Shown here: positions 992-19,116 of the stretch, piece by piece | Layout: the number at the start of each line of letters is the position of its first letter | Position numbering within the stretch: the first letter of the stretch is position 1 | From: a virus | Virus record (IMG/VR): IMGVR_UViG_3300034375_013653 | Location: 1 to 20,039 of that record | Reading direction: 5' to 3' (one strand) | Length of the DNA stretch: 20,039 nt | Translations under genes and position numbers: made by a program | Notes under the pieces: generated by a model | What the model was told of the DNA's origin: nothing | Seen by the model: the letters and a program-made list of their open reading frames with translations, nothing else | Databases searched by the model: none

Positions 992-1020
992 AGCCCCCAG
1001 AACAGACCTCGGGCATCAAA

Positions 1021-2469: not shown

Positions 2470-2481
2470 TCTAAATTCATC

Positions 2482-2566: not shown

Positions 2567-2599
2567 GCGATTTCACTTGTCGATTATAGGGCAAAAGCT

Positions 2600-2872: not shown

Positions 2873-2886
2873 TCAGGTGCCCGCTC

Positions 2887-3258: not shown

Positions 3259-3262
3259 TCGC

Positions 3263-4128: not shown

Positions 4129-4143
4129 CCCCAGGCCATCGCC

Positions 4144-4335: not shown

Positions 4336-4343
4336 GTGCCGGT

Positions 4344-4463: not shown

Positions 4464-4469
4464 CGGGCA

Positions 4470-4595
4470 ATGGCATTCACCTGGGGGCAATACCTCGTTA
4501 TCGCTGGGCTCTTCATCGGCTCTCTCGGGATCGGCGTCGCCTGGGGTGCTTTCCGGCTTGGCTGGAAAGAAATCATTGACGCATCAACCAACTGA
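4470..4595 (+). CDS. Second minor coat-like membrane peptide (pVII/pIX position)
   Basis: The 41-aa frame begins MAFTWGQYLVIAGLFIGSLG, has one transmembrane helix (residues about 7-28), and ends with a basic/acidic tail, RLGWKEIIDASTN. It starts 6 bases after the previous peptide stops. Its TGA lies within TGAGGA, which is also the ribosome-binding site of the major coat gene. The tight packing and operon position support translation. By analogy with Ff phages it would cap the virion end assembled first and help start packaging. Confidence 0.55.
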   Translation: MAFTWGQYLVIAGLFIGSLGIGVAWGAFRLGWKEIIDASTN

Positions 4596-4606
4596 GGAAA
4601 CTCACC

Positions 4607-4909
4607 ATGTACCAAAGCAAGAAAGAGATCGCCATTCGTGGCGAACAGGTTGCACAGAGCGATACCAGTGTCGGTAAAGCACTGGGCGCCAAAGCGGCTG
4701 CCACCTTCACCGTTGCCGCTGCTGGCATGACTGCCGGTGCTGCCAATGCGGCCATCACCGTTCCGCCTGAACTGCTCGAGGTTTTCACCGATCTGGCCAC
4801 CGCCTTCGGCACCCTGGTTGCCGCTGGTGCGGTGCTGTTCGGTGTCATCCGCGGCACCCTGGCGCTGTTCAAGATCGCCAGCCGCGTCTTCAGCGCTGCG
4901 GGCGCTTGA
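4607..4909 (+). CDS. Major coat protein precursor (pVIII-like)
   Basis: The 100-aa protein has a long leader ending in TAGAANA, with probable signal-peptidase cleavage after residue 48. The mature form of about 52 aa has an acidic amphipathic start (VPPELLEVFTDLATAF), a hydrophobic core (GTLVAAGAVLFGVI) and a basic C-terminal end (RGTLALFKIASRVF). That is the standard layout of inovirus major coat proteins, in which the basic end faces the DNA. A strong ribosome-binding site, GAGGA (4594-4598), lies 8 bases upstream and an intrinsic terminator follows the gene, as after gene VIII in other filamentous phages. The leader is longer than usual. Confidence 0.82.
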   Translation: MYQSKKEIAIRGEQVAQSDTSVGKALGAKAAATFTVAAAGMTAGAANAAITVPPELLEVFTDLATAFGTLVAAGAVLFGVIRGTLALFKIASRVFSAAGA

Positions 4910-4923
4910 TCTAGCGGAAAAAC

Positions 4924-4951
4924 GGCCCGGTAACGTGTTATCGGGCCTTTT
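4924..4951 (+). terminator. Rho-independent terminator after the major coat gene
   Basis: The stem GGCCCG (4924-4929) pairs with CGGGCC (4942-4947), with further pairing inside the loop (TAAC/GTTA), and is followed by TTTT. It lies 15 bases after the coat stop. A terminator here lets coat mRNA accumulate while only some transcripts continue into the adsorption and assembly genes. Confidence 0.85.
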
Positions 4952-4964
4952 CAAAAGACCTTTC

Positions 4965-5030
4965 ATGGACGCCAACATGCTCACCATCTTCCTGGCGGCG
5001 TTCTGGACACTGCTGTTAGGGCGGGTATGA
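4965..5030 (+). CDS. Possible 21-aa hydrophobic peptide before the adsorption gene
   Basis: A short frame, MDANMLTIFLAAFWTLLLGRV, has a TGA that overlaps the ATG of the next gene (ATGA at 5027-5030), suggesting translational coupling. Residues 5-18 are strongly hydrophobic. It may only serve to bring ribosomes to the pIII-like gene. There is no family evidence. Confidence 0.35.
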   Translation: MDANMLTIFLAAFWTLLLGRV

Positions 5031-6442: not shown

Positions 6443-6444
6443 CC

Positions 6445-6816
6445 ATGCCGTTCCTGCTCGGTTTTCTCGGCCGCTTCTTCCTGCGCCTGTTCGCAGGCAG
6501 TGGCAAGTTTCTACTGGGCTTCCTGGCCCCGCTCATCGCCCCCCTGATGACCTTCTTGGGAAGCTTCTTCAAGAAGCTGGGCATCCTGGCATTGGTTGTC
6601 GCGGCCATCGCTGTGGCCATCAACGTGCTGTCTGCGGCTATCGGCTCACTGTTCTCAGGCCTTACCGGTGGACTACCAGATGACCTGCTGACCATCGGCC
6701 GCATGCTGATCCCGGGCAACATCCCTTACTGCCTTTCCCTGCTGGTCGTCGCCCGCGTTAAGTCCCTCGTCTTCTACTGGGTCAGCCGCCTTTCAGAAAA
6801 GCTGATTCACACCTGA
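6445..6816 (+). CDS. pVI-like minor coat / virion-release membrane protein
   Basis: The 123-aa very hydrophobic protein has about three membrane segments: residues 20-43, 46-70 and 93-112. It starts 2 bases after the pIII-like stop with a GGGAGGG ribosome-binding site. Filamentous phages have a hydrophobic pVI between gene III and gene I/zot, which joins pIII at the virion end released last. Size, hydrophobicity and position agree. Sequence identity with known pVI families was not judged. Confidence 0.7.
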   Translation: MPFLLGFLGRFFLRLFAGSGKFLLGFLAPLIAPLMTFLGSFFKKLGILALVVAAIAVAINVLSAAIGSLFSGLTGGLPDDLLTIGRMLIPGNIPYCLSLLVVARVKSLVFYWVSRLSEKLIHT

Positions 6817-6825
6817 GTAATTGCC

Positions 6826-7932
6826 ATGGCCGTCTATATCGTGACCGGCAAGCTCGGTGCCGGAAAAACCCTGTTGTGCGTCATGCGCATTCTCGACTAC
6901 CTCAAAAAGAAGCGCCGGGTAGCCGTCAACGTCGACGTGAAAATGGACAAGCTGTGCAAGCGTGGCAACAAGCATTCGCGCCTTGTCCGCCTGCCTGACC
7001 TGCCCACCGCCGATGACCTGATCGGCCTGGGTGTCGGTTGCGAGGTCTACGACGAAGAACAGTTCGGCGGCATCTTCCTGGATGAAGCCGGGGTCTGGCT
7101 GAACTCCCGCGACGGGAACAGCGGCGGGCGTACCGACCTGCTCAAGTTCTTCCTGTTCCTGCGCAAGCGTCGTTGGGATCTGTGGCTGTGCGTGCAGAAC
7201 ATCAACGTCATCGACAAGCAGATTCGCGAGTCCATCGCTGAACACGTCGTCTACATCAACCGCCTCGACCGTGTAAAACTGCCGTTCCCCATCGGCCCGC
7301 TGCTGCGCGTGCTCTCGCTCGGCTTCTTCAAAGGCCGCCTGCCGAAACTGCATCAAGCCATCGTCAAGTACGGCGCCAAGTTCAACTCGCCCAAGGTCGA
7401 TGACTGGTTCTATCGCGGCGAAGAGTTCTACAGCTTCTACGACACCACCCAGGAATACGACAAGGAATACGACAAAGGCTCGTATTCCATGCTGCCGCCT
7501 GGCTACTGGTATCGCCCACTGCCCACCGCCAAGCGCGATATGGGGTTCTTCATGCGTACCACCAAAATCTTCTTCCGCCGAACTCGCGTGCTCAATGCCT
7601 TTGCACTGGGCGCTATCGTCGCCGTAGTAATCAGCGTCCCGGTTTTCGCTGGCATCGCCTACAGCCGCCAGCCTGCTGAAGCCTCCACGGTACAAAGCAC
7701 GCCTCAACAGGCGGCGGCTATGCCATCCACCACCCTGGCTACTGAGTTCGAGGGCTACCGCATCGCCACCTACGGCCTTTTGGCTGGGCGTTCCTTCTAC
7801 GTGTTCCGCAGCCCTGACGGGGAACGCATCAGCTCAGAAGAGCTGATGCCGCGTGGCGTTGCTGTTCAGAGCCTAGGCCCCCGTGAAGCCCTGCTGGTTC
7901 GGGGCGATGACTACCTCTCCCTCTACAGGTGA
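6826..7932 (+). CDS. zot: Zot/pI-type assembly ATPase
   Basis: The 368-aa inner-membrane motor extrudes phage DNA and assembles the virion. Walker A is GKLGAGKT (residues 8-15) and Walker B is GIFLDEAGVW (82-91). A basic region, KIFFRRTRVL, precedes a single membrane helix (about 256-279). A periplasmic C-terminal tail of about 90 residues follows. This is the pI/Zot plan: cytoplasmic P-loop domain, one membrane span, periplasmic tail. It starts 9 bases after the pVI-like gene and is followed 6 bases later by the secretin gene. The tail should contact that secretin. Confidence 0.93.
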   Translation: MAVYIVTGKLGAGKTLLCVMRILDYLKKKRRVAVNVDVKMDKLCKRGNKHSRLVRLPDLPTADDLIGLGVGCEVYDEEQFGGIFLDEAGVWLNSRDGNSGGRTDLLKFFLFLRKRRWDLWLCVQNINVIDKQIRESIAEHVVYINRLDRVKLPFPIGPLLRVLSLGFFKGRLPKLHQAIVKYGAKFNSPKVDDWFYRGEEFYSFYDTTQEYDKEYDKGSYSMLPPGYWYRPLPTAKRDMGFFMRTTKIFFRRTRVLNAFALGAIVAVVISVPVFAGIAYSRQPAEASTVQSTPQQAAAMPSTTLATEFEGYRIATYGLLAGRSFYVFRSPDGERISSEELMPRGVAVQSLGPREALLVRGDDYLSLYR

Positions 7933-7938
7933 TCTGCC

Positions 7939-9288
7939 ATGACTGATCGTATCGAAGCCGTCATCGGCTTTTCATTCGCCCTGTTCGTCTCCCTGGTCGT
8001 TGCATGCTCCCAGTCAGCCAGAGCTACCGAACGCATCGAACTGTATGACGCCACCCTACAAGACTTCGTTGAATGGTCGTCGCAGATGCTCAACAAGTCC
8101 GTGGTGGTCGGCTCGGATATCCGCAGTGCTCCCATCAGCATCTTCGCCACCTACAGCAACAACGCCGAGCTAGAAGCCCTGATCGCCAGCGCCGTTACCT
8201 CGTCCGGCTTTCACTTCGCCGCACGTGGTAACACGCTGCTGATCAGCGCGCAGCCGATCCCTGAACCGCTCGACCTGAAAACCAAGGTGTTCCAGCTCCA
8301 GCACCTGCAATCCGATTTCGCCTACCAATCGATTCTCGACGTGCTCCGATCACAGCAAGGCGAAAACCAGCAGTCCGGCCAATCCCTGATGGCCACCCCA
8401 TCGCCCACTTCAAACGCTGTGATCGTCACTGCCACAGAATCCCAGCTCGAAACCGTCGCCAGCGTCCTGGCTGAAATCGACAAGCCACGTCGCCAAGTCG
8501 TCATCACCGCCGTGGTGGCTGAGCTGGCCGACAACGACTTCGAAGCCCTCGGCCTCAATATCGGTGCCAAGAATGACCGAACCGACCTGGGTGGAATCAG
8601 CCTGCGCGGCTCCGACAAGTCCGACCTGGGATTCAGCCTCACCTTCAACGGGCCAACCCTGTCGGCCTTCTTGCAGGCGGTCAAAGTCAGCGGCAACAAC
8701 CGCATTCTCTCAACGCCCCAGCTACTCACCCTCAACAGGGAATCAGCCTCTATCGTCGTCGGCCAGAACGTCCCGTTCATCACCGGGCAAACCACCAGTG
8801 GATCTACGCCAGCCTCTGATCCCTTTCAAACCATCGTCCGCCAGGATGTAGGCGTCTCGCTCGATGTAACGCCCTTCATAACCCCTTCAGGGGCTATCGA
8901 ACTCAGCGTTAACCAATCCGCCTCGACCGTCTCTGATGATCGCAGTGCCGCAGACATCATCACCAACACCCGCCGCATCACCACCAAGGTGCAGTTACCC
9001 GATGGCGGGGGTGTGCTCCTGGGCGGCCTTCGATCAGAGCAACGGGATGAATCCGTCTCCCGTGTGCCCTTCCTGGCGGATATCCCGCTAATTGGTCCTG
9101 TCTTCCGCTCGACCTCTGTCCGCACCCGTGGAACCAACCTCGTTGTGCTGCTCACCGCATCCATACACACCGAGGAAAGAGGGGTAGCTGTCCCTGATGC
9201 AGTAAGTCCGCTTGTTCCGCAGGCGGTCGAGCAGGCGCGCGGGCACTTCGGCGCAGCCGGTGGGACCGCGCGCCTAGCCGACCGCTAG
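7939..9288 (+). CDS. Outer-membrane secretin for phage export (pIV-like)
   Basis: The 449-aa protein has a signal sequence (about 1-29). A short N0/STN-like domain follows (about 32-95, LYDATLQDFVEWSSQMLNKS), then an N1-type domain (about 105-190) and a C-terminal secretin beta-barrel domain (about 200-430). Typical secretin sequences are present: RILSTPQLLTLN, VGQNVPFITG, and LPDGGGVLLGGLRSEQ followed by VPFLADIPLIGPVFRS. It forms the outer-membrane ring through which the filament leaves the cell. Some inoviruses lack a secretin and borrow the host type II one; this phage encodes its own. The gene's stop codon lies inside the first hairpin of the origin region. Confidence 0.92.
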   Translation: MTDRIEAVIGFSFALFVSLVVACSQSARATERIELYDATLQDFVEWSSQMLNKSVVVGSDIRSAPISIFATYSNNAELEALIASAVTSSGFHFAARGNTLLISAQPIPEPLDLKTKVFQLQHLQSDFAYQSILDVLRSQQGENQQSGQSLMATPSPTSNAVIVTATESQLETVASVLAEIDKPRRQVVITAVVAELADNDFEALGLNIGAKNDRTDLGGISLRGSDKSDLGFSLTFNGPTLSAFLQAVKVSGNNRILSTPQLLTLNRESASIVVGQNVPFITGQTTSGSTPASDPFQTIVRQDVGVSLDVTPFITPSGAIELSVNQSASTVSDDRSAADIITNTRRITTKVQLPDGGGVLLGGLRSEQRDESVSRVPFLADIPLIGPVFRSTSVRTRGTNLVVLLTASIHTEERGVAVPDAVSPLVPQAVEQARGHFGAAGGTARLADR

Positions 9289-9316
9289 GCGCGCTGACGT
9301 CCCTGTAGCACGTCAG
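9268..9316. other. Candidate replication origin of element 1 (two abutting hairpins)
   Basis: A perfect 11-bp stem, GCGCGCCTAGC / GCTAGGCGCGC with a 5-nt loop (9268-9294), shares its last C with a second inverted repeat, CTGACGT (9294-9300) / ACGTCAG (9310-9316), whose 9-nt loop is CCCTGTAGC. The second repeat is conserved in element 2 with one base changed in the loop, at the same place just upstream of the replication initiator gene. That is the expected location of the plus-strand (nick) origin. The first hairpin may also end secretin transcription. Confidence 0.6.
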
Positions 9317-9361
9317 ATAAACCGATTTTAGCAACCACGTTACACCAGAGAGATACAGAGA

Positions 9362-10645
9362 ATGAGCGCACCAAAGGACTACTACCGCATTGATATTGAA
9401 ACCGGGAAAGAGAACCCGAAAAGTCGTCTGTTCTGTGATCCTCGGGCGGGTGGTTTCGTGGATCTGTCCAACGTCCGAATCCTGGCCTGTAGCGTCGATA
9501 CCGTCCGCCAGTTGTATCGAGGCCTGATCCGCCCGGAAATCATGAGCCTGTTCGAGAAGCCGGGGACTATCGTTGATTTCGCTGGCCAGCGCTGGCACTC
9601 AGGGCGTGTCAGCAAGGATTCCGGTTACCAGTACAAGCTCCAGAATGCTGACCTAGGGATCATCCTGCTGGTGAAGAACTTCAACGCCAAGCTGGAGAAC
9701 ATCGGCCCTCACCTGAAAATCGAAGTGTCGCCCCACGCCATCGACACCTTCTCGCCTGAGCGCCTGCAAGAGCGCCTGGACTACTACGCCAGCCACGTGC
9801 TGACCAATGTCGAGCGCAACCAGTGCGCCGTTCACCTCGCGCTAGATCTGCAAGGCTGGCAACCGCCTGCTGATCTGGTCGCCCGCATGCACTGCCGTGC
9901 CCGCTCAGCCCGTGATATCTCCGGCATCAAAGAAATCCAGTGGACCCTGGAGTCTGCCACCTATGGCAAAGGCCAGTCGTACCTATTCGGCTCCGCTGGT
10001 GGCGTCCAGCTCGGGATCTACAACAAGACCGAACAGGCCAGAGCCATCGACAAGCTCGACTACTGGGAAAACGTCTGGAGACGCCGTGACAGCTTCGACG
10101 AAGCCGATCCGGACAACTACAACCCCGAGCAAGACGTGTGGCGCGTAGAGCTGCGTTATCACCATTCGGTGATCCAGCAATTCGCCTCTGGCTCATTCGA
10201 CCTGCAGAGCGGCGAAACCATCGAAACCAACAGCTACGCCGCCTTCGCACCGCACCTAGACGGCCTGTGGCGCTATGGCCTGCGCCAATTCAAGCTGCTG
10301 GCTCGCCCTGGCTACTTTGAGCCCATTTGGACCCTGATCCGTGATGATGTTCGCGTGGATCTGCCGGTCGATTCCCTGGTGGACGAAACCGAGTACAAGC
10401 GCCAATACAAGACCTCGCGGGGCTTCTCCGGCAAGAACGTGGAACTGTTCCTGGGAAACTTCGTCAGCCTGCTGGCACGGGAGCGAGTGGGCGCTAGAAA
10501 GGCTTTTTATCGGCTCAAGGATTGGGAGTGCTGGCCGGTGATCCGCGACCACTATGCCGCCAAAGGCATGGATGAAGACGGGCTGTATAAGCACATCAAA
10601 GGCATCCTGGAGGAACGCCATGTGCGTTGGGGGCGCGCTGTATGA
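9362..10645 (+). CDS. Rolling-circle replication initiator of element 1
   Basis: The 427-aa protein is closely related to the element 2 initiator (16394-17677), roughly three quarters identical by eye. It matches the Pf-phage replication initiator in size and place: after the secretin and immediately before the integrase. A strand such as CAVHLALDLQG (159-169) and the flanking basic segments fit a replication-initiation-factor (Rep_trans-like) fold. I did not assign the catalytic tyrosine. It should nick the plus-strand origin, probably the hairpin at 9294-9316, to start rolling-circle synthesis. Its TGA overlaps the integrase ATG (ATGA, 10642-10645). A 105-nt stretch (10406-10510) is almost identical to element 2. 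Confidence 0.82.
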   Translation: MSAPKDYYRIDIETGKENPKSRLFCDPRAGGFVDLSNVRILACSVDTVRQLYRGLIRPEIMSLFEKPGTIVDFAGQRWHSGRVSKDSGYQYKLQNADLGIILLVKNFNAKLENIGPHLKIEVSPHAIDTFSPERLQERLDYYASHVLTNVERNQCAVHLALDLQGWQPPADLVARMHCRARSARDISGIKEIQWTLESATYGKGQSYLFGSAGGVQLGIYNKTEQARAIDKLDYWENVWRRRDSFDEADPDNYNPEQDVWRVELRYHHSVIQQFASGSFDLQSGETIETNSYAAFAPHLDGLWRYGLRQFKLLARPGYFEPIWTLIRDDVRVDLPVDSLVDETEYKRQYKTSRGFSGKNVELFLGNFVSLLARERVGARKAFYRLKDWECWPVIRDHYAAKGMDEDGLYKHIKGILEERHVRWGRAV

Positions 10646-11646
10646 CGGCCAGGAAAGACGGCAGCACCTGGACCGCTGACTTCTACGAAAACGGTCGCTC
10701 GGGTCGTCGTATTCGCAAGAAAGGTTTCAAGACCAAGGCCGCAGCCCAGCGCTATGAATCGGAGTTCTTCGCCAGCCTGAACACGACCGGCCGACCGCTC
10801 GATGATCGCCTGTCTGATCTGGTGACGCTCTGGCATGACCTGCACGGCTGCTCGCTCAAAGATGCCAAGCACCGTCTTGCACGCACCCTGGCCACGGTCG
10901 AACGCCTCGGCAACCCGATGGCTTCCAACTTCGATGCACTCGCCTGGGCACGCTATCGCCAGACACGCCTCAAGGACTTCAGCCCGCACACCGTCAATCA
11001 TGAACAGCGCTACCTGTCGGCGGTCTTCTCCGAACTGATCCGCCTGGGTGCCTGGGTCGGCAACAACCCGTTGGCCAAGGTTCGCCAGATCAAGACCGAC
11101 CAAACCGAGCTAACGTTTCTGACGCTGCAACAGGTCGAACAACTGCTGGAAGAGTGCAAACGCTCGACTAACAACCATACCTATCCGGTTGCATTGATCT
11201 GCTTGGCTACTGGCGCCCGATGGGATGAAGCTGAATCCCTGCCACGTGGTGCCCTGTTCGGCGGTAAGGCCCACTTTCACCGGACCAAAAACCGCCAGTC
11301 CCGATCGGTGCCGATCCCCAAAGAGGTCGAAGAGATTGCATTAAAGGTGGGGATGCCTGGGAATGGTCGGCTGTTCATGCCCTGCCGGTCGGCATTCCGA
11401 TCTGCTTACCAGCGCTGCGGCTTCCACACACCGGGCCAGATGACTCACATTCTCCGCCACACCTTTGCCAGCCATTACATGATGGGCGGTGGTGACATCC
11501 TGGGCCTACAACGCATCCTCGGGCACTCCACCATCACCATGACCATGCGCTATGCGCACCTGTCGCCTGATCATCTGGAATCGGCACTCAGGCTATCTCC
11601 GCTGTCTCAGCTCAACGTTTTTGGCAGTTCTAGCCGGGCTATATAG
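10642..11646 (+). CDS. Tyrosine integrase of element 1
   Basis: The 334-aa tyrosine recombinase is counted from the ATG overlapping the replication gene stop; a longer in-frame start at 10627 is possible. An N-terminal arm/SAM-like part is followed by the catalytic domain. The catalytic set is complete: Arg193 (ATGARWDE), Lys216 (RTKNRQS), His269 and Arg272 (HILRHTF), His295 (ILGHSTI) and nucleophile Tyr304 (MTMRYAH). It integrates the phage circle into the 3' half of tRNA-Met. It is translationally coupled to the replication initiator, so replication and excision proteins are made together. Its 3' end overlaps the convergent HEPN-like gene by 8 bases. Confidence 0.93.
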   Translation: MTARKDGSTWTADFYENGRSGRRIRKKGFKTKAAAQRYESEFFASLNTTGRPLDDRLSDLVTLWHDLHGCSLKDAKHRLARTLATVERLGNPMASNFDALAWARYRQTRLKDFSPHTVNHEQRYLSAVFSELIRLGAWVGNNPLAKVRQIKTDQTELTFLTLQQVEQLLEECKRSTNNHTYPVALICLATGARWDEAESLPRGALFGGKAHFHRTKNRQSRSVPIPKEVEEIALKVGMPGNGRLFMPCRSAFRSAYQRCGFHTPGQMTHILRHTFASHYMMGGGDILGLQRILGHSTITMTMRYAHLSPDHLESALRLSPLSQLNVFGSSSRAI

Positions 11647-12463
11647 GTTTAGAGCGATACCGACGAGCCCATCTGCCAGTAGCTTCATCTTTCTTCTTCA
11701 AGATATCGAAGCATCCAGACTCATAAAGTAGCTGCTGCCAACTGCTTAGCCCTATTTGCCTATATGCATCATGGGCAATACCGGTGGATTGGAGATACGA
11801 AATTGCCTTATCTAACTCAGTATATCCATCAGAAGCCTTTAGCTTTTCGGCAGCTTTTAGAGCGATCACCTCATTAAGCATTAGCCACTCGTTTATATCT
11901 GAAGGCGGCACCTCATAAATCCTACAAGACAAATTTGGATCAGCATAAATCTGTGTAGAAAGCTCCATCAGAGCAGCCATACTAGCCATAAACTGCTTTT
12001 GCTCGTCTAGCCACTCATTCGTCTGACCCAATATTCTGTCAAGATACTTTTCTGCCTCATTACAAGACTCGACATTGCTGAGGTCGTAGTCCTCATAAAA
12101 ATGGTGGACCAGATAATTTCTCTCTCTGACCAGCTCTGCAAGTGAGGATATTCTTTTGTTATAATCGTCTTTATTGAAGAAAGACTGTCTATGCCTAATC
12201 GTCAAACCTAGCTTTTCTTCAGGCTCATCCTGCCCTTCTAAGACCAGGGCTTTGGCACTGAATTCTTTGACTAACATGCCCAAAGTGTCAGTGCTGCACC
12301 TCCTCAAATCAAGATCCGACTCTGTAACAGACAACTCTATCAGCGGAGCTATCCTTTTAAGACGCACCTCGTATAGCTGAAAATTTAGCAAACACTTCCC
12401 CACCAAAGTGGCGACTCTTTCGCGCGCTACGCTTTTACTCTGGGGCTGTGACATTTCACACAT
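11639..12463 (-). CDS. Cargo protein with HEPN-like motif and OST-HTH-like C-terminus
   Basis: The 274-aa mostly helical soluble protein has RERNYLVHHF at residues 113-122, which contains RNxxxH (Arg115, Asn116, His120), the signature of HEPN ribonucleases. Residues about 215-272 (AISYLQSTGI...IGLSSWQQLLYESGCFDILKK) resemble an OST-HTH/LOTUS RNA-binding module. That pairing would make an RNA-targeting effector, a plausible abortive-infection or superinfection-exclusion gene; this function is inference. The gene is markedly AT-richer than the phage backbone, is on the opposite strand, and lies between integrase and attachment site, a usual cargo slot. The start may be the second Met (MSQPQSK, complement of 12454). 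Confidence 0.55.
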   Translation of the reverse strand: MCEMSQPQSKSVARERVATLVGKCLLNFQLYEVRLKRIAPLIELSVTESDLDLRRCSTDTLGMLVKEFSAKALVLEGQDEPEEKLGLTIRHRQSFFNKDDYNKRISSLAELVRERNYLVHHFYEDYDLSNVESCNEAEKYLDRILGQTNEWLDEQKQFMASMAALMELSTQIYADPNLSCRIYEVPPSDINEWLMLNEVIALKAAEKLKASDGYTELDKAISYLQSTGIAHDAYRQIGLSSWQQLLYESGCFDILKKKDEATGRWARRYRSKPI

Positions 12464-12661
12464 CCAAGTTCGAAGATCTTCAGCTTATCTGTCTAAGTGC
12501 TGCCTAGTCGAGATGCAGGATTTATGAGCCTGGATACAACAGACCGAGACCTATAAAAGAGACCTTTCCCAGCAGCCTTCCTTTGGCTAGTATCCGTTGC
12601 GTAGCGCTTTGAGCGCTGTCAGGCGATCACCATCTCCCCGTCCTGCATGGAAGCTGACTGT

Positions 12662-13090
12662 ATGCCCCGCCTTATCTTCGCCTTAATCGCTGCCCTCCCC
12701 CTGATCTGCTCCGCAGAGATCTACAAATGGACAGACGAGAATGGGCGCGTTCACTTCGGTGACAAACCAAAAGACAAGGACAAAGCTGAGCTGCTCTCGA
12801 TCAAGGTCAATTCCTATGAGAGCGTCAGCTATGAAGCTATCACTCCAGTCCAGGGCGCCGAATCAAAGCGAGTCGTGATGTACTCCGCTGTCTGGTGCGG
12901 CTACTGCAAGCAGGCCCGCCAGTACTTCCAGCAGAACGGCATCAGCTTCGTTGAATACGATATCGAGAAAGACCAGCGAGCACGCAAGGCCTACGACTCA
13001 ATCGGCGGCAATGGCGTACCGGTCATCTTGGTCGGCGACAAGAGAATGAATGGCTTCAGCGTGGCGGGATTCCAGGGCATCTATCAATGA
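12662..13090 (+). CDS. Secreted DUF4124-glutaredoxin fusion protein
   Basis: The 142-aa protein (counted from the second ATG) has a cleavable signal peptide (MPRLIFALIAALPLICSAEI). A DUF4124-like segment follows (IYKWTDENGRVHFGDKP, about 20-37). A glutaredoxin-like domain then has the redox pair CGYC inside YSAVWCGYCKQA and a cis-proline segment NGVPVILV. It should act as a periplasmic thiol-disulfide protein. The ATG at 12662 has GGAAG 8 bases upstream and leads directly into the signal peptide, so it is preferred to the ATG at 12647. Such fusions are common chromosomal genes in Pseudomonas. Here the gene sits between the integrase cargo and the attachment repeat, so it is either phage cargo or captured host DNA. 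Confidence 0.8.
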   Translation: MPRLIFALIAALPLICSAEIYKWTDENGRVHFGDKPKDKDKAELLSIKVNSYESVSYEAITPVQGAESKRVVMYSAVWCGYCKQARQYFQQNGISFVEYDIEKDQRARKAYDSIGGNGVPVILVGDKRMNGFSVAGFQGIYQ

Positions 13091-13115
13091 TGCTCCTGAT
13101 CCGCGTAGACAGGGT

Positions 13116-13135
13116 GTAGTCACTTCGTAGTCACT
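13116..13135 (+). repeat. Helically phased direct repeat near the element 1/2 junction
   Basis: GTAGTCACT occurs at 13116-13124 and again at 13127-13135, an 11-bp period. The second copy ends 48 bases before the 46-bp attachment repeat. The spacing of one helical turn and the position suggest integrase arm or excisionase binding sites; the assignment is inference. Confidence 0.45.
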
Positions 13136-13149
13136 ACCCCAGAAACGAC

Positions 13150-13175
13150 AAAGGGCTAGCCGAAGCTAACCCTTT
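13150..13175. terminator. Terminator-like hairpin beside the internal attachment copy
   Basis: AAAGGG-C-TAGC, loop CGAA, GCTA-A-CCCTTT forms a stem with one C/A mismatch. It has the same geometry as the hairpin at 19038-19063 that follows the live tRNA. On the minus strand this copy runs into TTTGTCGTTT rather than an unbroken U-run, so it is probably weaker. Confidence 0.55.
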
Positions 13176-13182
13176 GAAAAAT

Positions 13183-13228
13183 ATGGTGGCTACACCGGGA
13201 CTTGAACCTGGGACATCAGCATTATGAA
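13183..13228. repeat. Attachment site copy (3' half of tRNA-Met) between the two elements
   Basis: The 46 bp are identical to 19071-19116. They cover the tRNA-Met 3' end from the anticodon loop to CCA, and identity stops just after TATGAA in the anticodon stem. The remaining 5' half of the tRNA is absent, so this is an attachment-site remnant and not a gene. It serves as the right end of element 1 and the left end of element 2. Confidence 0.9.
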
Positions 13229-13372
13229 AAAGCGCCACCTCCTTCGGCAGACGCTGGAAGCCAGTAAAATCGGGGGTTCAGCTACCACTATTCATTGATT
13301 AATATCCACTACTTGGATTTTCTAGGGCGCAAGGGGACACTTCCCCAATCCGAACCTGCTCGATCAATTTAG

Positions 13373-14455
13373 CTATTTTGCACTTGATAGCCCGCCAATC
13401 AAATCCGGAACCAATCGCTCGCTAAAACCACATACAACCCCCAAAACGAGTAGCGAATATAGCTCCCCCTTGAACACTCCTAAAGCTAAGCCGGCCTCTA
13501 CACAGGCAAAGCCAACAAATGCGAATGCCCCCCCTACAAGAACTCTCAACCCCCCTTGAAGCAAAATAATATGGTCAGGGTTTTGCTCGCTTACCTTAAT
13601 GGAGTTAGACCGGGAGACAGTTGAAAGCAGCGCCCCCAAGACACCACCAATAACAGGAGGCAAAACGACTTTCGACATCAAGAAGTCAGTGGAGTAAGCG
13701 ATAAAAAAAGCACTAATCAAAATAGCCCCAAACGAGACCGTCAAAAGTAAATACTTAGACTTCACAGTATTAGCAACAAATACTGAAACTCGCTCTTTAA
13801 ACCCTTCGAATATCTTATCAATCTGTTCCTTCTCAGATTGATTAAGCGCAGAGTGAAGAGCAACCCCAAGACTTAGCGTCATCTTCTTAACATCAGCTCT
13901 AGACAATGTATCAGGACAAATTAACTCCCTGTAGGCCTCCATCTGCCCAAACTGTTCAATGGCATATCTTTCAAGCTCTGTTTGACGCTTAATCAAGTAC
14001 TCAAGAGACAAATCGTCATTAACCCATATATATGCTCGCCTAGATGCATATATCACTTTTAAGGGTGCAACAATAGAATCGATCTCGTCACGAAATGCCT
14101 GGATCGTTTTTTCGTAAATAGCCTCATCGTGATCTTCCAACACACAACAAAGCGCAGACACATACAATGAATTTATCTTATGACTATGAATGCCTTTTAA
14201 CTTATGGTCTGCTTCCGCCAAAAGCTGATCAACCTCAGTTATTTTTGCACTCTTACTTACAGGAATTCCACGCGCACTCCATGTTACTGAATAGCTTTCG
14301 GCTATGGTATATATTATGTACCCATCACCTACCGACAAGACCCCCGATATAGTTTCCCCTTCAGATATAACCACACCTACTTTATAGGTCGTAAAATCAT
14401 CAATATCAAAAGGCTTTTCTTGCACAACCGCCAGCTTCAAAGCTTCTTCGCCCAT
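13373..14455 (-). CDS. Polytopic membrane cargo protein of element 2, function unknown
   Basis: The 360-aa protein is counted from the ATG at the complement of 14455. A GTG at 14470 would add five residues. Residues 1-230 are soluble and mixed alpha/beta. The C-terminal third has about four membrane segments (about 236-256, 263-282, 302-326 and 332-346) and ends in a CGFSERLVPDLIGGL motif. Cytoplasmic sensor plus membrane C-terminus is a layout seen in membrane-acting defence effectors, but I do not recognise the family and the role is unproven. The gene is AT-rich relative to the phage genes and lies between attachment site and repressor. A run of eight G residues (coding strand, 14464-14457) directly precedes the ATG and could slip. 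Confidence 0.65.
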   Translation of the reverse strand: MGEEALKLAVVQEKPFDIDDFTTYKVGVVISEGETISGVLSVGDGYIIYTIAESYSVTWSARGIPVSKSAKITEVDQLLAEADHKLKGIHSHKINSLYVSALCCVLEDHDEAIYEKTIQAFRDEIDSIVAPLKVIYASRRAYIWVNDDLSLEYLIKRQTELERYAIEQFGQMEAYRELICPDTLSRADVKKMTLSLGVALHSALNQSEKEQIDKIFEGFKERVSVFVANTVKSKYLLLTVSFGAILISAFFIAYSTDFLMSKVVLPPVIGGVLGALLSTVSRSNSIKVSEQNPDHIILLQGGLRVLVGGAFAFVGFACVEAGLALGVFKGELYSLLVLGVVCGFSERLVPDLIGGLSSAK

Positions 14456-14579
14456 ACCCCCCCCTAACACTTCCTGTCCTTTTAATTTTGCTTAGCTGCC
14501 AACCCGAAAACTTCTCTTCCCTCGCACGCATATCAAGAATCTTTTCTTGTAGCAAACCATCGCCGGGCCACTTCCGCTG

Positions 14580-14852
14580 TTACCTGCTGCCCGCTTCTTG
14601 TCCTTCCAATTTTAGGTTCGCTTCTTCGTACTCAGGCGAAACCTGCCCACAGTCCGGGGCAATTTTCCCGGTGACAAGCCACAGAGCGTACTGCGGGAAG
14701 AGTTCGACCACCGCTTCGATTTCTGCATCACTCAAGCGAGCCTTGCCGGTTCGGATGTTCCCCCACCGGTAGCGGTCGATCCCGGTCTGTTTCTCAAACC
14801 AGACGCTAGTCCTGTTTCTGTCGAAAAGGCTTATAAGCCTGTCTCTTATCAT
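14580..14852 (-). CDS. Phage repressor of element 2
   Basis: The 90-aa protein is homologous to the element 1 repressor. MIRDRLISLF aligns with MIRERIVAIW, and FPQYALWLVTGKIAPDCGQ with HPEYALWLASGQIAPECGQ. The start was placed at an internal Met because of that alignment; an upstream Met at 14897 would add 15 hydrophobic residues that run through the operator. The helix-turn-helix part (about 16-38, FEKQTGIDRYRWGNIRTGK) differs from element 1, so it should bind a different operator. It is divergent from the first XisF-like gene. It probably keeps element 2 silent. Confidence 0.75.
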   Translation of the reverse strand: MIRDRLISLFDRNRTSVWFEKQTGIDRYRWGNIRTGKARLSDAEIEAVVELFPQYALWLVTGKIAPDCGQVSPEYEEANLKLEGQEAGSR

Positions 14853-14878
14853 GCCTAAAAATTCTAATAAGTAGAATG

Positions 14879-14933
14879 TACTCAGTAATGAGTACACAGT
14901 ATCCTTGCTCGCACTGAGTAAAGATTACTTAGT
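14879..14933. promoter_or_regulatory. Operator palindromes of element 2
   Basis: TACTCA-GTAA-TGAGTA (14879-14894) is a perfect 6-bp-arm palindrome. A second related inverted repeat, ACTGAGTAA-AGA-TTACTTAGT (14913-14933, one mismatch), lies about 36 bp further on. Both contain the same ACTnAGTAA core. They sit between the divergent repressor and XisF-like genes and are the likely repressor sites. Element 1 has a quite different sequence here. Confidence 0.6.
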
Positions 14934-15019
14934 AAAACCGCCAAGGACGCTTGCCAGCCAACCTTGCGGAAACCCCTTTTAACCACAGTTTATGAGCATT
15001 TCAGAGGCAGGGATAGGCG

Positions 15020-15301
15020 ATGAGTACACAGCACCTGGAACAACCACCCTTCGACGTGAGCTTCGATCTGGACGGTAAGCGAGTGATCTACCTCGACTGC
15101 CGTAACGCCCTCACCTGCAGCAAGGAAACCTTCGCTGCCATGAACGGTGTTTCCACCGACACCGTGATCGCCTGGATGCAGAGCGGCACCATTCCCAGCG
15201 TGAAGATGGGCCGTCCCCGCCTTGTCCACCTCGCCCAAATTCGCGCCGATCTGGCCAAGGGCAAAACCATCTTTGCGCAGGGGGATTACGTCGATGAATA
15301 A
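15020..15301 (+). CDS. XisF-like regulator 1 of element 2
   Basis: The 93-aa protein is homologous to the element 1 regulator. The shared core is an excisionase/AlpA-type winged helix (about 40-80: TFAAMNGVSTDTVIAWMQSG, then IPSVKMGRPRLVHLAQIRADL) and the ending GKTIFAQGDYVDE. It is the first rightward gene, divergent from the repressor. By analogy with Pf4 XisF4 it should drive excision and activate replication genes. Its TAA lies 5 bases past the ATG of the next gene (ATGAATAA), so the two are translationally coupled. Confidence 0.7.
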   Translation: MSTQHLEQPPFDVSFDLDGKRVIYLDCRNALTCSKETFAAMNGVSTDTVIAWMQSGTIPSVKMGRPRLVHLAQIRADLAKGKTIFAQGDYVDE

Positions 15302-15542
15302 GGCCAACCCGAACCACGGCAACGTCGTCCCACTGGGCGCCGCTATGGGCGACGTCTGCAGCATCGTGACCTTCGCCACTGCCAGTGGCATTCCTGCTGA
15401 TGAAGTGGCCGAGCTGGTGGACAACGGCACTCTGCCAAGCCTGACGTTTGCTGACTTCCGCATGGTCAATGTTGGCAAGCTCCGCGCCGATCTGCTGAGC
15501 GGTAAAGAAGAGTTTAAAGAGGGGGACTACAGCCATGCCTAA
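15294..15542 (+). CDS. XisF-like regulator 2 of element 2 (tandem paralogue)
   Basis: The 82-aa protein begins MNKANPNHGN at an ATG overlapping the previous stop. An in-frame ATG at 15222 is inside the upstream gene and is unlikely. The C-terminal half repeats the pattern of its neighbour: DNGTLPSLTFADFRMVNVGK, RADLLSGKEEF, EGDYSHA. The wing residues KMGRPR are replaced by TFADFR, so DNA contacts differ. Element 1 has only one such gene. It may be an antirepressor or a modulator of its paralogue; that is inference. It overlaps the next gene by 8 bases. Confidence 0.65.
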   Translation: MNKANPNHGNVVPLGAAMGDVCSIVTFATASGIPADEVAELVDNGTLPSLTFADFRMVNVGKLRADLLSGKEEFKEGDYSHA

Positions 15543-15933
15543 GCGCGGGATCACCCTGGATGCTGCCACGGCCCTCGGATACATCGGCCAAACCGTTCTG
15601 CTGGAGCTGATGTGGGAAGGGGACGAAGAAACCTTCTGGCAGTGCATGCACATCGTCGGTGTCGTGCTGCCAGTCGAAGGTGTGCAGGACGAAGCCTACT
15701 TCCTGGGCATGGGCATCGCCTCCAGCACACGCCACGCCAACGAAATCTACTTTGAAGACATTTGCTCTATCAGGGCGATGCGGCACCGCGACCGGCATGG
15801 TTCCGGCAACGTACTGGACCGCATGACCCTGACCCATTCCACCGATGTGGCCGGGTCAGGGGCCGCGCTCCCGGCTCGTCGGGACAGCTCCACCGTCCCG
15901 GCGAACGGAAGCACGGGCGCAGCGCACCCTTGA
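15535..15933 (+). CDS. Unknown protein of element 2
   Basis: The 132-aa product's first 85 residues look like a compact soluble domain ([20 protein letters not shown], then [20 protein letters not shown]). The last 45 residues are low-complexity Arg/Ser/Ala/Gly-rich and may simply read through non-coding DNA. It overlaps the end of the second XisF-like gene and has a GAGGGGG ribosome-binding site, so it is the third gene of the early operon. I see no homologue in element 1 and do not recognise the family. Confidence 0.55.
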
Positions 15934-15962
15934 CCCAGCACCATGAATATCAGCCTGACAAC

Positions 15963-16048
15963 GGGAGTGTGGGGTAGCTTCACCACCCCGCGCTCCCGAG
16001 CCCTCGGCGGCAAGAGTGGGATGACAAGGGCAAAGCCCTTGGTGTTGA
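15963..16048. other. Candidate packaging-signal / cis-acting hairpin region of element 2
   Basis: A 13-bp stem with two G-T pairs, GGGAGTGTGGGGT / ACCCCGCGCTCCC with a 9-nt loop (15963-15997), precedes the 31-nt block 16018-16048. That block is identical to 3460-3490 of element 1, with the stem CAAGGGC-AAA-GCCCTTG. The flanking DNA is not shared. A stem upstream plus the conserved hairpin is the same arrangement as in element 1. It is the best candidate for a cis signal that lets element 1 proteins package element 2. Confidence 0.5.
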
Positions 16049-16326
16049 TTCTCTCGGCACGCCACCAGCCCCAACGCCGCACCACCGCAAAGCCAGACGC
16101 TGGGCGCGCCCGCCTGCACTTCCTCCCGCCTACACCCGACACCCTGCCGGCCTTCCTGGCGCTGATCCTGTTCCTGATCCTCTCGGCCATTGGCAATTCC
16201 TGGGTGGCTGGGAAAAGCCCACAAGGGCCAACGCCGTATGCCTGGACAGTGACAGATGAAGGATGCGGGCCGGCGGTGGGGTTGCGTGCGAGGCACGAGC
16301 GCGGGTGCGCGGCGCCGGCCCGCTGA
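16021..16326 (+). CDS. Possible small membrane protein in the module that replaces the virion genes
   Basis: The 101-aa frame has one strong membrane helix (about 47-66, PAFLALILFLILSAIGNSW) in a stretch whose third codon positions are GC-rich, as expected of a real gene. It begins with MTRAKPLVL from the conserved 31-nt block and ends inside the origin hairpin, so its ends may be accidental. The ribosome-binding site is poor. With its neighbours it fills the 460 bases between 15933 and 16394 that otherwise hold only hairpins. Translation is uncertain. Confidence 0.35.
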   Translation: MTRAKPLVLILSARHQPQRRTTAKPDAGRARLHFLPPTPDTLPAFLALILFLILSAIGNSWVAGKSPQGPTPYAWTVTDEGCGPAVGLRARHERGCAAPAR

Positions 16327-16345
16327 CGTCCCTGTAACACGTCAG
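16265..16345. other. Candidate replication origin of element 2
   Basis: An 11-bp perfect inverted repeat, GCGGGCCGGCG (16265-16275) / CGCCGGCCCGC (16313-16323), encloses a smaller stem, CGTGC-GAG-GCACG. Its last C begins the second repeat, CTGACGT (16323-16329) / ACGTCAG (16339-16345), with 9-nt loop CCCTGTAAC. The second repeat differs from element 1 by one loop base, and the shared-C geometry is the same. It lies just upstream of the replication gene. Confidence 0.6.
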
Positions 16346-16393
16346 ATAACAAGCAGTTGAACGAGTGACAAACCTTCAATAACAGGAAATCAA

Positions 16394-17677
16394 ATGGACG
16401 CCGTTAAAGACTTCTTCCGCGTTGATAACCAAACCGGCCTTGAGTCCCCTCATGGCCGCTTGTTCCTGGACATCGGCAAGACCGGCTTTGTCGATCTGTC
16501 TGCCGTTCGCCTGCTCCGCTGTGGCGTCGATACCGTTCGCCAGCTCTATAAGGGCCTGCTGCGCCCTGACATCCTGGGCCTGTTCGACAAGCCCGGCGCC
16601 ATTGTCGATTTCGCCGGTGAGCGCTGGCACTCGGGCCGGGTTAGCCGTGACTCGGGCTACCAGTACAAGCTGCAGAACGCTGACTTGGGGTTCGTGCTGC
16701 TGGTGAAGAACTTCAACGCCAAAGTCGAGAACATCGGCCCCCACCTGAAAATCGAGGTGTCACCCCATGCCATCGACAACCTTTCGCCCGAGCGCCTGCA
16801 GGCCCGCCTGGATCACTACGCCTCTCAGGTGCTGACGAACATCGAGGTCAATCAATGCGCGGTGCACCTCGCCCTTGATCTGCAGGGCTGGACGCCTCCC
16901 GCTGATCTGGTCAGCAACATGCATTGCCGTGCCCGCTCGCACCGGGATGTATCCGGCATCAACGAACTGCACTGGGCCACGAAATCCAGCGTGTATGGCC
17001 GCGGTGAAACCTCTATGTTTGGCTCGGCCAACGGCCTGCAGCTCTGCATCTACAACAAGACCGAGCAGGCCAGGGCTACCGACAAGCTCGACTACTGGGA
17101 AAGCGTCTGGCGTCGCCGTGACAGCTTCGACGAAACCGACCCGGACAACTACGATCCCACTCAGGATGTATGGCGCGTTGAGCTGCGCTATCACCACTCC
17201 ATCGTTCAACAGTTTGCCAGTGGCTCGGTAGACCTGCAGAGCGGGCAAGTGATCGACACCCGCACCTTTGCCGCCTTCGCGGGCCATCTGGACGGCCTGT
17301 GGCGCTACGGCCTGAACCAGTTCAAATACCTTGCCCGTCGCGGCTACTACGCTCCGATCTGGACGCTGATCCGTGACGACGTGCGCGTCGATCTGCCGGT
17401 CGATTCCCTGCTCGATGACACCGATTACAGGCGCTACTACAAGACGTCGCGGGGCTTCTCCGGCAAGAACGTGGAACTCTTCCTGGGAAACTTCGTAAGC
17501 CTGCTGGCACGGGAGCGAGTGGGCGCTAGAAAAGCTTTTTACACCCTCAAGGAATGGGACTGCTGGCCGGTGATCCGCGATCACTACGCATCCAAGGGTC
17601 TCAATGAAGACCGCCTCTATAAACACCTCAAAGCCTTGCTTGAGGAACGCAGTGTTCGTTGGGGGCGTGCCGTTTGA
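16394..17677 (+). CDS. Rolling-circle replication initiator of element 2
   Basis: The 427-aa protein is the same length as the element 1 initiator and aligns with it over the whole length without gaps, for example SGYQYKLQNADLG, KNFNAKVENIGPHLKIEVS and GFSGKNVELFLGNFVSLLA. It is intact, so element 2 should be able to replicate as a circle on its own. Its likely target is the inverted repeat at 16323-16345, which is almost identical to the element 1 one, so the two initiators may act on each other's origin. It has an AGGA ribosome-binding site. Its TGA overlaps a TTG start of the integrase. Confidence 0.82.
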   Translation: MDAVKDFFRVDNQTGLESPHGRLFLDIGKTGFVDLSAVRLLRCGVDTVRQLYKGLLRPDILGLFDKPGAIVDFAGERWHSGRVSRDSGYQYKLQNADLGFVLLVKNFNAKVENIGPHLKIEVSPHAIDNLSPERLQARLDHYASQVLTNIEVNQCAVHLALDLQGWTPPADLVSNMHCRARSHRDVSGINELHWATKSSVYGRGETSMFGSANGLQLCIYNKTEQARATDKLDYWESVWRRRDSFDETDPDNYDPTQDVWRVELRYHHSIVQQFASGSVDLQSGQVIDTRTFAAFAGHLDGLWRYGLNQFKYLARRGYYAPIWTLIRDDVRVDLPVDSLLDDTDYRRYYKTSRGFSGKNVELFLGNFVSLLARERVGARKAFYTLKEWDCWPVIRDHYASKGLNEDRLYKHLKALLEERSVRWGRAV

Positions 17678-18663
17678 TCACCAAAGGACCAAAGGGCTGG
17701 GACGTCGATTTCTGGCTCGATAAATCTGCCGGTATCCGCAAGCGCAAACGTGGCTTTCGCACCAAGAGCGAGGCCGAACGCTGGGTATCCGACACCCGCC
17801 GCCAGTACAGCCAACGTGGCCGTGATCCTGGCGAACGCCTGTCCGATCTGGTCGATACATGGCAAGAGCTGCACGGCTCCACGCTCAAAGACCCTTACCG
17901 CTACAGCCGGACGATGGCCATAGCGCATGCCCTGGGCAACCCTATTGCCGCCACCTTCACCGCCCTGGACTTTGGCCGCTACCGTACCCAGCGCCTCAAA
18001 GACTGCACCCCGGCCACCGTGAACCACGAGCACCGCTACCTGAAAGCCGTGTTCAATGAGCTGATTCGCCTGGGCGTGTGGCATGAGGCCAACCCGCTGG
18101 CCATGCTTCGTCAACTCAAGGTGGATGAAACCGAGCGAGCGTTTCTCACCCTGGATGAATGCCGCCTTGTCCTGCAGGAATGCGCCGCCTCGACCAACAG
18201 CCATACGCTGCCTGTCGCCCAAATCTGCCTGGCTACCGGTGCTCGATGGGATGAAGCCGAAAGCCTGACCCGGCCCCAGGTTGCCAATGGCCAAGTGCGC
18301 TTCGTGCGTACCAAGAATGGCAAGAGTCGTTCGGTACCGATCCCGGCCGAGCTGGAGAAGCTCATTCTGTCGCGTGGCTACCCTGGAAACGGCAAGCTGT
18401 TCAGCTCCTGCAGGTCAGCCTTCCGCAAAGCCTATGAGCGCACCGGCCTGCATACGCCAGGGCAAATGACCCACATACTCCGCCACACCTTTGCCAGCCA
18501 CTACATGATGCAAGGCGGGAACATCGTCACCCTGCAGCGCATCCTGGGCCACGGCGACATCAAGATGACCATGCGCTATTCACACCTCGCGCCCGATCAC
18601 TTCGCCACTGCACTGACCCATTCGCCGCTGGCACTACTGGAAGTGCACGACACTTCCGTCTAG
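17674..18663 (+). CDS. Tyrosine integrase of element 2
   Basis: The 329-aa recombinase is counted from the TTG (17674-17676) at the position of the element 1 ATG; another TTG at 17659 is possible. The catalytic residues are complete: Arg191 (ATGARWDE), Lys214 (RTKNGKS), His267 and Arg270 (HILRHTF), His293 (ILGHGDI) and Tyr302 (MTMRYSH). It targets the same tRNA-Met 3' half as element 1. Its N-terminal arm-binding region differs from the element 1 integrase (DVDFWLDKSAGIRKRKRGFR against TADFYENGRSGRRIRKKGFK), in line with the different phased repeats beside the attachment sites. The TTG start suggests low translation. Confidence 0.92.
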   Translation: MITKGPKGWDVDFWLDKSAGIRKRKRGFRTKSEAERWVSDTRRQYSQRGRDPGERLSDLVDTWQELHGSTLKDPYRYSRTMAIAHALGNPIAATFTALDFGRYRTQRLKDCTPATVNHEHRYLKAVFNELIRLGVWHEANPLAMLRQLKVDETERAFLTLDECRLVLQECAASTNSHTLPVAQICLATGARWDEAESLTRPQVANGQVRFVRTKNGKSRSVPIPAELEKLILSRGYPGNGKLFSSCRSAFRKAYERTGLHTPGQMTHILRHTFASHYMMQGGNIVTLQRILGHGDIKMTMRYSHLAPDHFATALTHSPLALLEVHDTSV

Positions 18664-18792
18664 CCTGTCCCCTGCAAGGCAACTATTCGGCCAAAGCCAG
18701 GAGGGCTATATGGGAATGGAGATCGTGAATGGTACAGGGACGAGCTGCGTAGCAAGGGCAAGAAGCCTTCCTGGGACAACTTCAATGCGAGC

Positions 18793-18996
18793 ATGGCGCA
18801 ATCACCCGCGCCGACCGAGGGCGAAGTGCCTCGCATTGCCAAGGTAGCAAAGCCTCCGTCTGACATTCACCTGCAGGCACAACAGATCCTCGATGCTCGA
18901 GCACACGCCAGTAAAGGCAGCCCATGGCCGATGCTGTTGCTATCGTTCTTCGTTGTGAATGCTGCAGGGTATGCCGGCTACCTATTCTTGAGGTAG
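18793..18996 (+). CDS. Small C-terminally anchored membrane protein, start uncertain
   Basis: The 67-aa product has a hydrophilic N-terminal part and one membrane helix at the C terminus (about 44-65, SPWPMLLLSFFVVNAAGYAG). The same frame stays open upstream and reads protein-like sequence (GNGDREWYRDELRSKGKKPS) back to about 18708, but contains no ATG, GTG or TTG there. A good ribosome-binding site (AGGAGGG) and an ATG at 18710 are in another frame, one base off. One extra G after that ATG would join them. The gene may therefore be frameshifted at its start or begin at 18793. It lies between integrase and attachment site, the cargo slot. Confidence 0.45.
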   Translation: MAQSPAPTEGEVPRIAKVAKPPSDIHLQAQQILDARAHASKGSPWPMLLLSFFVVNAAGYAGYLFLR

Positions 18997-19023
18997 GGAC
19001 AAGAAAGGGACAGTCAGGGGACA
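18996..19023 (+). repeat. Three GGGACA repeats at 11-bp spacing near the right attachment site
   Basis: GGGACA occurs at 18996-19001, 19007-19012 and 19018-19023, exactly one helical turn apart. The last copy ends 48 bases before the attachment repeat, the same distance as the GTAGTCACT pair at the other junction. A further GGGACA lies at 13334-13339 near the left end of element 2. Integrase arm or excisionase sites are the likely meaning. Confidence 0.5.
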
Positions 19024-19037
19024 CCGACCCAAATAAA

Positions 19038-19063
19038 AAGGGGCTAGCTTGCGCTAACCCCTT
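19038..19063 (-). terminator. Rho-independent terminator of tRNA-Met
   Basis: On the minus strand, AAGGGG-T-TAGC-loop-GCTA-G-CCCCTT runs into TTTTTATTT about 10 bases after the tRNA CCA end. The terminator lies inside element 2, so the inserted element supplies the tRNA transcript end. Confidence 0.8.
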
Positions 19064-19070
19064 GAATTTT

Positions 19071-19116
19071 ATGGTGGCTACACCGGGACTTGAACCTGGG
19101 ACATCAGCATTATGAA
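19071..19116. repeat. Right attachment site copy inside intact tRNA-Met
   Basis: The 46 bp are identical to 13183-13228. They cover the base before CCA through the 3' half of the tRNA to the anticodon loop. Integration here rebuilds a complete tRNA gene, as usual for tyrosine integrases that target tRNA 3' ends. Confidence 0.9.

Follow-up and report, generated by a model that had tools for sequence, protein, structure and literature searches.

The tRNA-Met locus and its two elements

The window analysed here is the whole IMG/VR record IMGVR_UViG_3300034375_013653 (20,039 bases), in which two elements related to Pf-type inoviruses stand in tandem at a tRNA-Met gene. The downstream one, element 2, is a 5.9-kb unit (13182-19116) bounded by 47-bp perfect repeats, with genes for replication, regulation and integration and a cargo gene of its own. 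Its relatives recur across Pseudomonas and Stutzerimonas, and the likeliest reading of element 2 is a satellite that uses the particles of the phage. Its features are as follows.

13182..13228, no strand: left attachment repeat of element 2, which is also the right end of element 1 (47-bp perfect repeat)
13373..14470, minus: cargo gene of 365 amino acids (aa), without a family match
14580..14897, minus: C-like repressor (phrog_147, E 9e-23)
15020..15301, plus: excisionase/activator (phrog_2951; NCBIfam TIGR01764 below cut-off)
15303..15542, plus: reg2, second excisionase-like regulator (phrog_1864/2951)
15535..15933, plus: E2_132, satellite marker protein of 132 aa (alignment, AlphaFold, fold searches)
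15854..16050, plus: structured single-stranded DNA (ssDNA) module of 195 nucleotides (nt), common to Pf phages and plasmids (covariation; DNA fold z -3.4)
15943..16326, plus: open reading frame (ORF) for a predicted 127-aa single-pass membrane protein, running through the module (ORF conservation, pN/pS)
16265..16322, plus: G+C-rich hairpin just 5' of the origin motif, candidate packaging signal (z -2.7)
16323..16349, plus: conserved inverted repeat preceding rep, a candidate for the plus-strand origin (motif conservation)
16394..17677, plus: Rep, rolling-circle initiator (phrog_1159, E 4e-201, YNK motif)
17659..18663, plus: tyrosine integrase (PF00589/PF24624)
18793..18996, plus: 67-aa hypothetical protein (ORF; 46% match in L012 and L013)
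19070..19116, no strand: right attachment repeat of element 2, inside tRNA-Met (47-bp perfect repeat)

The two repeat copies are 5888 bp apart from start to start, and the right copy forms the 3' end of the tRNA-Met gene (19072-19148, minus strand). Since the repeat is perfect and located at a tRNA end, a chance origin was rejected. An earlier note on this DNA had described element 2 as having intact repressor, regulator, replication and integrase genes and its own attachment repeats while lacking every particle gene, including that of the ssDNA-binding protein, and our assignments bear this out. The four kinds of gene are all open and assignable to families, so that the element has its own replication initiator (phrog_1159) and regulation (phrog_147, phrog_2951), as a satellite should. 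Its Rep retains the YNK motif of Pf Rep, its integrase retains the R, HxxR and Y motifs, whose residues we take to be catalytic, and reg2 is 35% identical to the first excisionase-like gene. Searches of its proteins with Pfam, PHROGs, NCBIfam and phmmer revealed no ssb, coat, pIII, pVI, Zot or secretin, although a very divergent coat or ssb could escape them. Element 2 does not have the Zot/pI, coat and ssb genes that would make it a member of the Inoviridae.

The virion genes that the note had placed directly upstream are indeed found in element 1, with pI/Zot, secretin and pVI identified by PHROG.

1..13181, plus: element 1, complete-type inovirus whose left end lies outside the window
3757-4128, plus: ssb (gene order and matches to other loci)
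4607-4909, plus: coat (gene order and matches to other loci)
5027-6442, plus: pIII-like (gene order and matches to other loci)
6445-6816, plus: pVI (phrog_1944)
6826-7932, plus: pI/Zot (phrog_1675)
7939-9288, plus: secretin (phrog_1012)
9362-10645, plus: rep
10627-11646, plus: int

The 100-aa coat candidate had no PHROG match. The cargo of element 1, at the left record edge (1-2106), consists of a cytosine DNA methylase gene and a Methyltransf_35 gene. A DUF4124-glutaredoxin gene recurs on either side of the tRNA-Met attachment site (window 12647-13090, L077 7641-8135, L038 13336, L003 5075-5314).

The genes shared by the two elements have diverged, with identities of 43% for the repressor, 41% for xis, 78% for rep and 58% for int. 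Omega, the ratio of nonsynonymous to synonymous change by the Nei-Gojobori method, is 0.014-0.18 for rep, 0.04-0.08 for int, 0.11 for xis and 0.09-0.29 for reg2, and strong purifying selection acts on Rep and integrase. For E2_132 it is 0.11-0.26 between close copies and 0.65-0.86 between its two types, a comparison in which synonymous change is lowered by the structured DNA.

Recurrence and movement of the probable satellite units

A single scan of genome contigs, with the Rep of element 2 as query, gave 47 loci, in which genes were called by phmmer with sequences taken from the window and from two named phages. In sixteen loci the satellite genes are present and ssb, coat and zot are absent; another 22 encode ssb and zot but no E2_132, and five are too short to classify. 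The remaining four have zot without an ssb match; L010, L024 and L046 among them are cut by contig ends, and L047 is not. None of the 47 combines the satellite and virion gene sets. Whole-genome searches with E2_132 yielded 20 further satellite loci, one of them a remnant, with rep in 19 and an integrase match in 18, and no ssb, coat or zot was found within 10 kb of them. Satellite relatives occur in many Pseudomonas and Stutzerimonas species.

The earlier note had allowed that an element confined to this locus, never circular and never found in particles, would be a dead deletion derivative, and had proposed a search for the same gene set with and without an adjacent complete inovirus. Element 2 is not so confined, and both arrangements exist. 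In L003 (P. toyotomiensis), the core is 90% identical to element 2 over 4097 bp and the cargo differs; ychF lies directly upstream together with a glutaredoxin-gene remnant, no complete phage is adjacent, and no left attachment site was found in this locus. The right flank of the window is 88.7% identical to that of L003 over 452 bp, implying that the host of the window is probably a close relative of that of L003. In L077, from another isolate, the tRNA-Met core of the window is again the site of a phage-satellite tandem, in which the phage differs: the satellite core is 93.5% identical to element 2 over 3675 bp, and the complete element has a Rep 95% identical to that of element 1 together with coat and Zot of the 62-2 type. 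In L080 the site is tRNA-Sec, where a satellite and a complete inovirus meet tail to tail. A complete inovirus thus adjoins the satellite in the window, L077 and L080, and the site is shared in tandem in the first two; many of the other satellites have no such neighbour.

Repeats of 17-86 bp at a tRNA or transfer-messenger RNA (tmRNA) gene, spaced by 5141-9631 bp, were found in 26 of the 46 satellite-bearing loci, the window being additional. The sites used are tRNA-Met, Thr, Gly, Ser, Sec and tmRNA.

Relatives of element 2 move as whole units. The chromosome of G151 contains two satellite copies with 2 mismatches over 5704 bp, one with a 28-bp repeat at tRNA-Gly and the other inside a protein gene, where only TCGAACCC is common to copy and target; joining the flanks of this second copy gives an open frame with 381 codons across the junction. 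Two loci from different species, L012 and L013, are 99.97% identical over 7621 bp, and their left flanks do not align. L013 itself has two tandem satellite copies, identical over the 5175 bp available. In another chromosome (G371), four satellites occupy four sites (L123-L126), and one Zot match was found. No terminal overlaps were seen in 11 IMG/VR loci tested, several of which are cut stretches of longer contigs, and therefore no circular satellite contig was obtained.

The cargo varies among these units; as the note had said of element 2, it has its own, the 365-aa gene, and L003 carries another. No family was found for this protein in Pfam, PHROGs, PADLOC or NCBIfam, and no relative in IMG/VR. 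Outside the core, 28 loci with bounded units hold 87 ORFs, of which 52 were scanned; the matches, by family name only, are to AbiC-like, Septu PtuA/PtuB, PIN, GmrSD-like, TIR and Fic families, and no transfer gene was found among them.

In a tree of Rep proteins, from which those outside 380-520 aa were excluded (including 550-aa fusions, see below), satellites and phages are interleaved, with 11 changes, at least 7 of them forced by starred branches, against a shuffled mean of 25.6. A short tree of the ssDNA module has 2 changes. A single origin of all satellites is not supported by Rep, and therefore either Rep has been exchanged or satellites have arisen repeatedly.

Shared DNA structures and satellite proteins

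The ssDNA module of approximately 195 nt aligns in 28 sequences, namely 16 satellites, 11 complete phages and phage 17897. The predicted structure has 51 pairs, of which 13 are changed on both sides, with 99.6% of cells pairing, and none of 500 shuffles reaches any of five covariation measures. It is nearly whole in 45 of the 46 satellite loci and present in 31 phage records; it was not found in E. coli genomes, and no match was obtained in Rfam. It also occurs on 189 plasmid records, 64 of them typed as conjugative, some of the records being Pf genomes filed as plasmids. L134 (NZ_CP137488.1) is such a case: its 10,248 bp are deposited as a plasmid of P. aeruginosa and hold a Pf phage gene set with an integrase.

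We first read the module as a packaging signal because it is present in all 16 aligned satellites, in Pf phages, and in phage 17897 with another Rep. This is no longer the leading reading, given the plasmid records and the position of the module directly after the ssb gene in the two conjugative plasmids inspected. The ssDNA promoters of the F plasmid (Frpo/ssi) likewise adjoin ssb (PMC11541004, excerpt). Owing to this likeness and to its presence on plasmids, the module is probably a single-strand initiation signal or ssDNA promoter, and perhaps the Pseudomonas counterpart of Frpo/ssi.

Of the 46 satellite loci, 41 have the inverted repeat before rep, as do all 16 of the complete loci that were aligned, and its motif occurs in Pf1, Pf4-type, PfAC02a and 62-2. 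It is absent from phage 17897, whose Rep differs, and from the plasmid stretches examined (L135 whole, L136 and L137 in part). This distribution suggests a Rep-linked origin. In most loci a G+C-rich hairpin directly precedes the motif; its median z is -2.2 for the satellites (32 loci) and -2.3 for the complete loci (26). With the packaging-signal hairpin of M13 as a model, we regard it as a candidate packaging signal.

The AlphaFold model of E2_132 is confident over residues 10-85, and the tail is disordered. The best Foldseek match, the WYL domain of CapW, has an E of 0.02, with none at 0.001, and VIA gives Z of 8.3 at best, mostly for Hfq, Sm and WYL, a range in which a common arrangement can score. 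These weak scores would fit an Sm/WYL-like barrel. No match was found in a search of phage records. Duplicated relatives of E2_132 are present in two complete inoviruses, L139 (4530-4907 and 5991-6368) and L087 (5510-5854 and 7162-7506), so that satellites are not the only carriers of the domain.

The 127-aa ORF has its ATG before the hairpin, and its frame runs through it. Such an ATG ORF was found in all 39 satellite loci examined (of 46), with at least 98 codons in 38, and a membrane stretch (mean hydropathy of at least 1.6 over 19 residues) in 35. In ten complete phages, the same frame closes 9-49 codons after the hairpin start, with an ATG there in none and a GTG in eight. In-frame pN/pS (nonsynonymous over synonymous polymorphism) is 0.20-0.74 in seven groups, and the other frames are stopped or at 0.78-3.8. 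This new membrane-protein ORF is common to nearly all satellites. The ORF is fused in frame to Rep, as a 550-aa protein, in three loci, two of them in the same genome (L119, L120, L083). These three loci are without the origin motif.

Presumed helper inoviruses and the nature of the elements

Two genera were surveyed for satellites and possible helpers, that of L003 with 348 genomes and that of L012 with 56. Searches with alignment A2 placed E2_132 in 13 and 14 genomes, respectively, and those with alignment A3 placed Zot in 41 and 26. Zot is present in 21 of 27 satellite genomes versus 46 of 377 others (kinship not corrected). The overlap is 11 of 13 in the genus of L003 (Fisher 1.1e-9) and 10 of 14 in that of L012 (Fisher 0.031), with a combined exact p of 2.1e-9, likewise uncorrected. 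When only the strongest Zot matches are considered, the proportions are 6/13 versus 9/335. Relaxases served as a control for a general abundance of mobile DNA and are not enriched (5/13 versus 76/335, p 0.16); they were used in place of Mu transposase, which was uninformative, with matches in 1 of 348 genomes and in none of the 14 control genomes. The satellite-positive genomes include G396, which holds a truncated remnant (L131), and G373, in which rep is split in two frames (L140). Of the 15 genomes of the first set (16 loci, two in one genome), Zot was found in 11, two of the matches being weak or partial, and in none of the other four.

That element 2 and its relatives are active, integrative, rolling-circle elements is well supported. 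On the basis of co-occurrence, adjacency and shared origin features, we further consider it likely that they are integrative satellites riding in Pf-type inovirus particles. When the switch is turned or a helper is active, element 2 would excise, and Rep would nick at the inverted repeat upstream of rep to make single strands. The ssb, coat and Zot proteins of the co-resident inovirus could then coat and extrude the satellite strand, mediated by the packaging hairpin common to satellite and helper. In the recipient, the 195-nt module would prime second-strand synthesis and the integrase would insert the circle. The Sm-like and small membrane proteins probably interact with ssDNA and with the membrane assembly site of the helper, roles which are guesses.

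Several observations weigh against riding in helper particles. Packaging by a helper is what we infer, and the best conserved shared cis element, the module, is not inovirus-specific, as its 189 plasmid records attest. Only 31 nt of it are present in element 1, and hence element 1 may not be the matching helper of element 2. The origin motif is missing from L020, L119, L120 and L083, and the hairpin exceeds chance only moderately: 17 of the 32 satellites and 16 of the 26 complete loci have a z below -2. No Zot match was found in six of the 27 satellite genomes (G011, G133, G373, G379, G014, G007), and one that was counted (G004) is partial. The co-occurrence statistics ignore kinship, and within Stutzerimonas alone the association is weak (10/14 versus 16/42).

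Some of these points would suit an autonomous integrative rolling-circle element that has Rep and att machinery in common with Pf phages but spreads by natural transformation or with another phage or conjugative element, without inovirus particles. The module does occur on plasmids, beside ssb in two conjugative ones, satellites do occur without Zot, and movement within one chromosome needs only Int, Xis and Rep. However, the overall association with Zot is strong and there is none with relaxases, the adjacency to complete inoviruses is recurrent, and the scanned cargo includes no transfer gene; we therefore regard this explanation as unlikely. The defence-like families in the cargo slots raise another, namely an island that persists through host protection, by its cargo or by repressor-based immunity, and now spreads rarely or never. 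This seems very improbable, since near-identical copies lie at different places and in different species, and the replication and integration genes are intact under selection. That element 2 is a dead remnant, left by deletion from element 1 or from a phage like it, is hardly credible, and the idea is rejected for the family: some copies are dead (L131, L140), but the divergence from element 1, a satellite-only gene set in dozens of loci, purifying selection and near-identical moved copies all speak against it, as the note had argued against a fresh deletion.

Among known systems, RS1 of Vibrio cholerae is without virion genes, replicates and is regulated through genes of its own, and lies in tandem with its helper CTXphi, of which it is close kin; it integrates via host XerCD at dif and carries the antirepressor RstC. 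The family of element 2 is similar in its lack of virion genes, its own replication and regulation and its tandem with an inovirus, and differs in having its own integrase, tRNA sites, variable cargo, a putatively Sm-like protein and a predicted membrane protein. No RstC was recognised in family-library scans of element 2, in which no search was aimed at RstC, and a tyrosine integrase at a tRNA takes the place of XerCD/dif. The idea that RS1 has a counterpart of the Pf type, with an int/att system and its own cargo, as the note put it, agrees with the integrase and repeats at tRNA-Met and with the recurrence of the gene set outside this locus. RS1 is described as counteracting the phage repressor and promoting both itself and its helper (PMC11389934, excerpt), and pDolos, a plasmid satellite of a Shewanella inovirus, as exploiting the inovirus without virion genes of its own (PMC13230959, excerpt). 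Unlike pDolos, which is an autonomous plasmid without integration, the family of element 2 integrates at tRNA genes and has a Pf-type Rep. Schmid et al. 2024 is reportedly the same work as that on pDolos. P4 and the phage-inducible chromosomal islands (PICI) are satellites that integrate and bring their own switch, replication and cargo genes. Their helpers are tailed double-stranded DNA phages with head packaging, in contrast to the presumed ssDNA filamentous helper of element 2. With Pf1, Pf4 and 62-2, element 2 has in common Rep, integrase, repressor, excisionase, origin motif and ssDNA module; it lacks their ssb-to-zot block between module and rep, and has the reg2 and E2_132 pair upstream of the module. 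In Pf4 the switch is attributed to XisF4 (PMC7379572, excerpt), and PA0727 is given as the Pf initiator (PMC4863604, excerpt). The literature covered, titles and abstracts with most subscription papers outside, describes no Pf or inovirus satellite in Pseudomonas, and RS1 and pDolos were the only filamentous-phage satellites met in it.

We would propose with some hesitation, as a possibility that we do not favour outright, that there is a whole class of chromosomal, cargo-carrying Pf-satellites in Pseudomonas and Stutzerimonas, in which the stretch from the repressor switch to rep has become a module peculiar to satellites. An Sm-like, ssDNA-binding protein and a membrane protein, the latter fused to Rep in some lineages, would steer the strand into the extrusion machine of the helper at the helper's expense, and an ssDNA start signal common to filamentous phages, satellites and conjugative plasmids would be reused. 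The family offers two unstudied conserved proteins with a testable role, and should be easy to test since culture collections hold environmental strains that carry a complete inovirus as well as a satellite. Both the biofilms of Pseudomonas and its phage resistance are shaped by Pf phages. Should these have integrative satellites, competition for particles and a changed Pf output would follow, and the satellites would carry defence-like genes between species.

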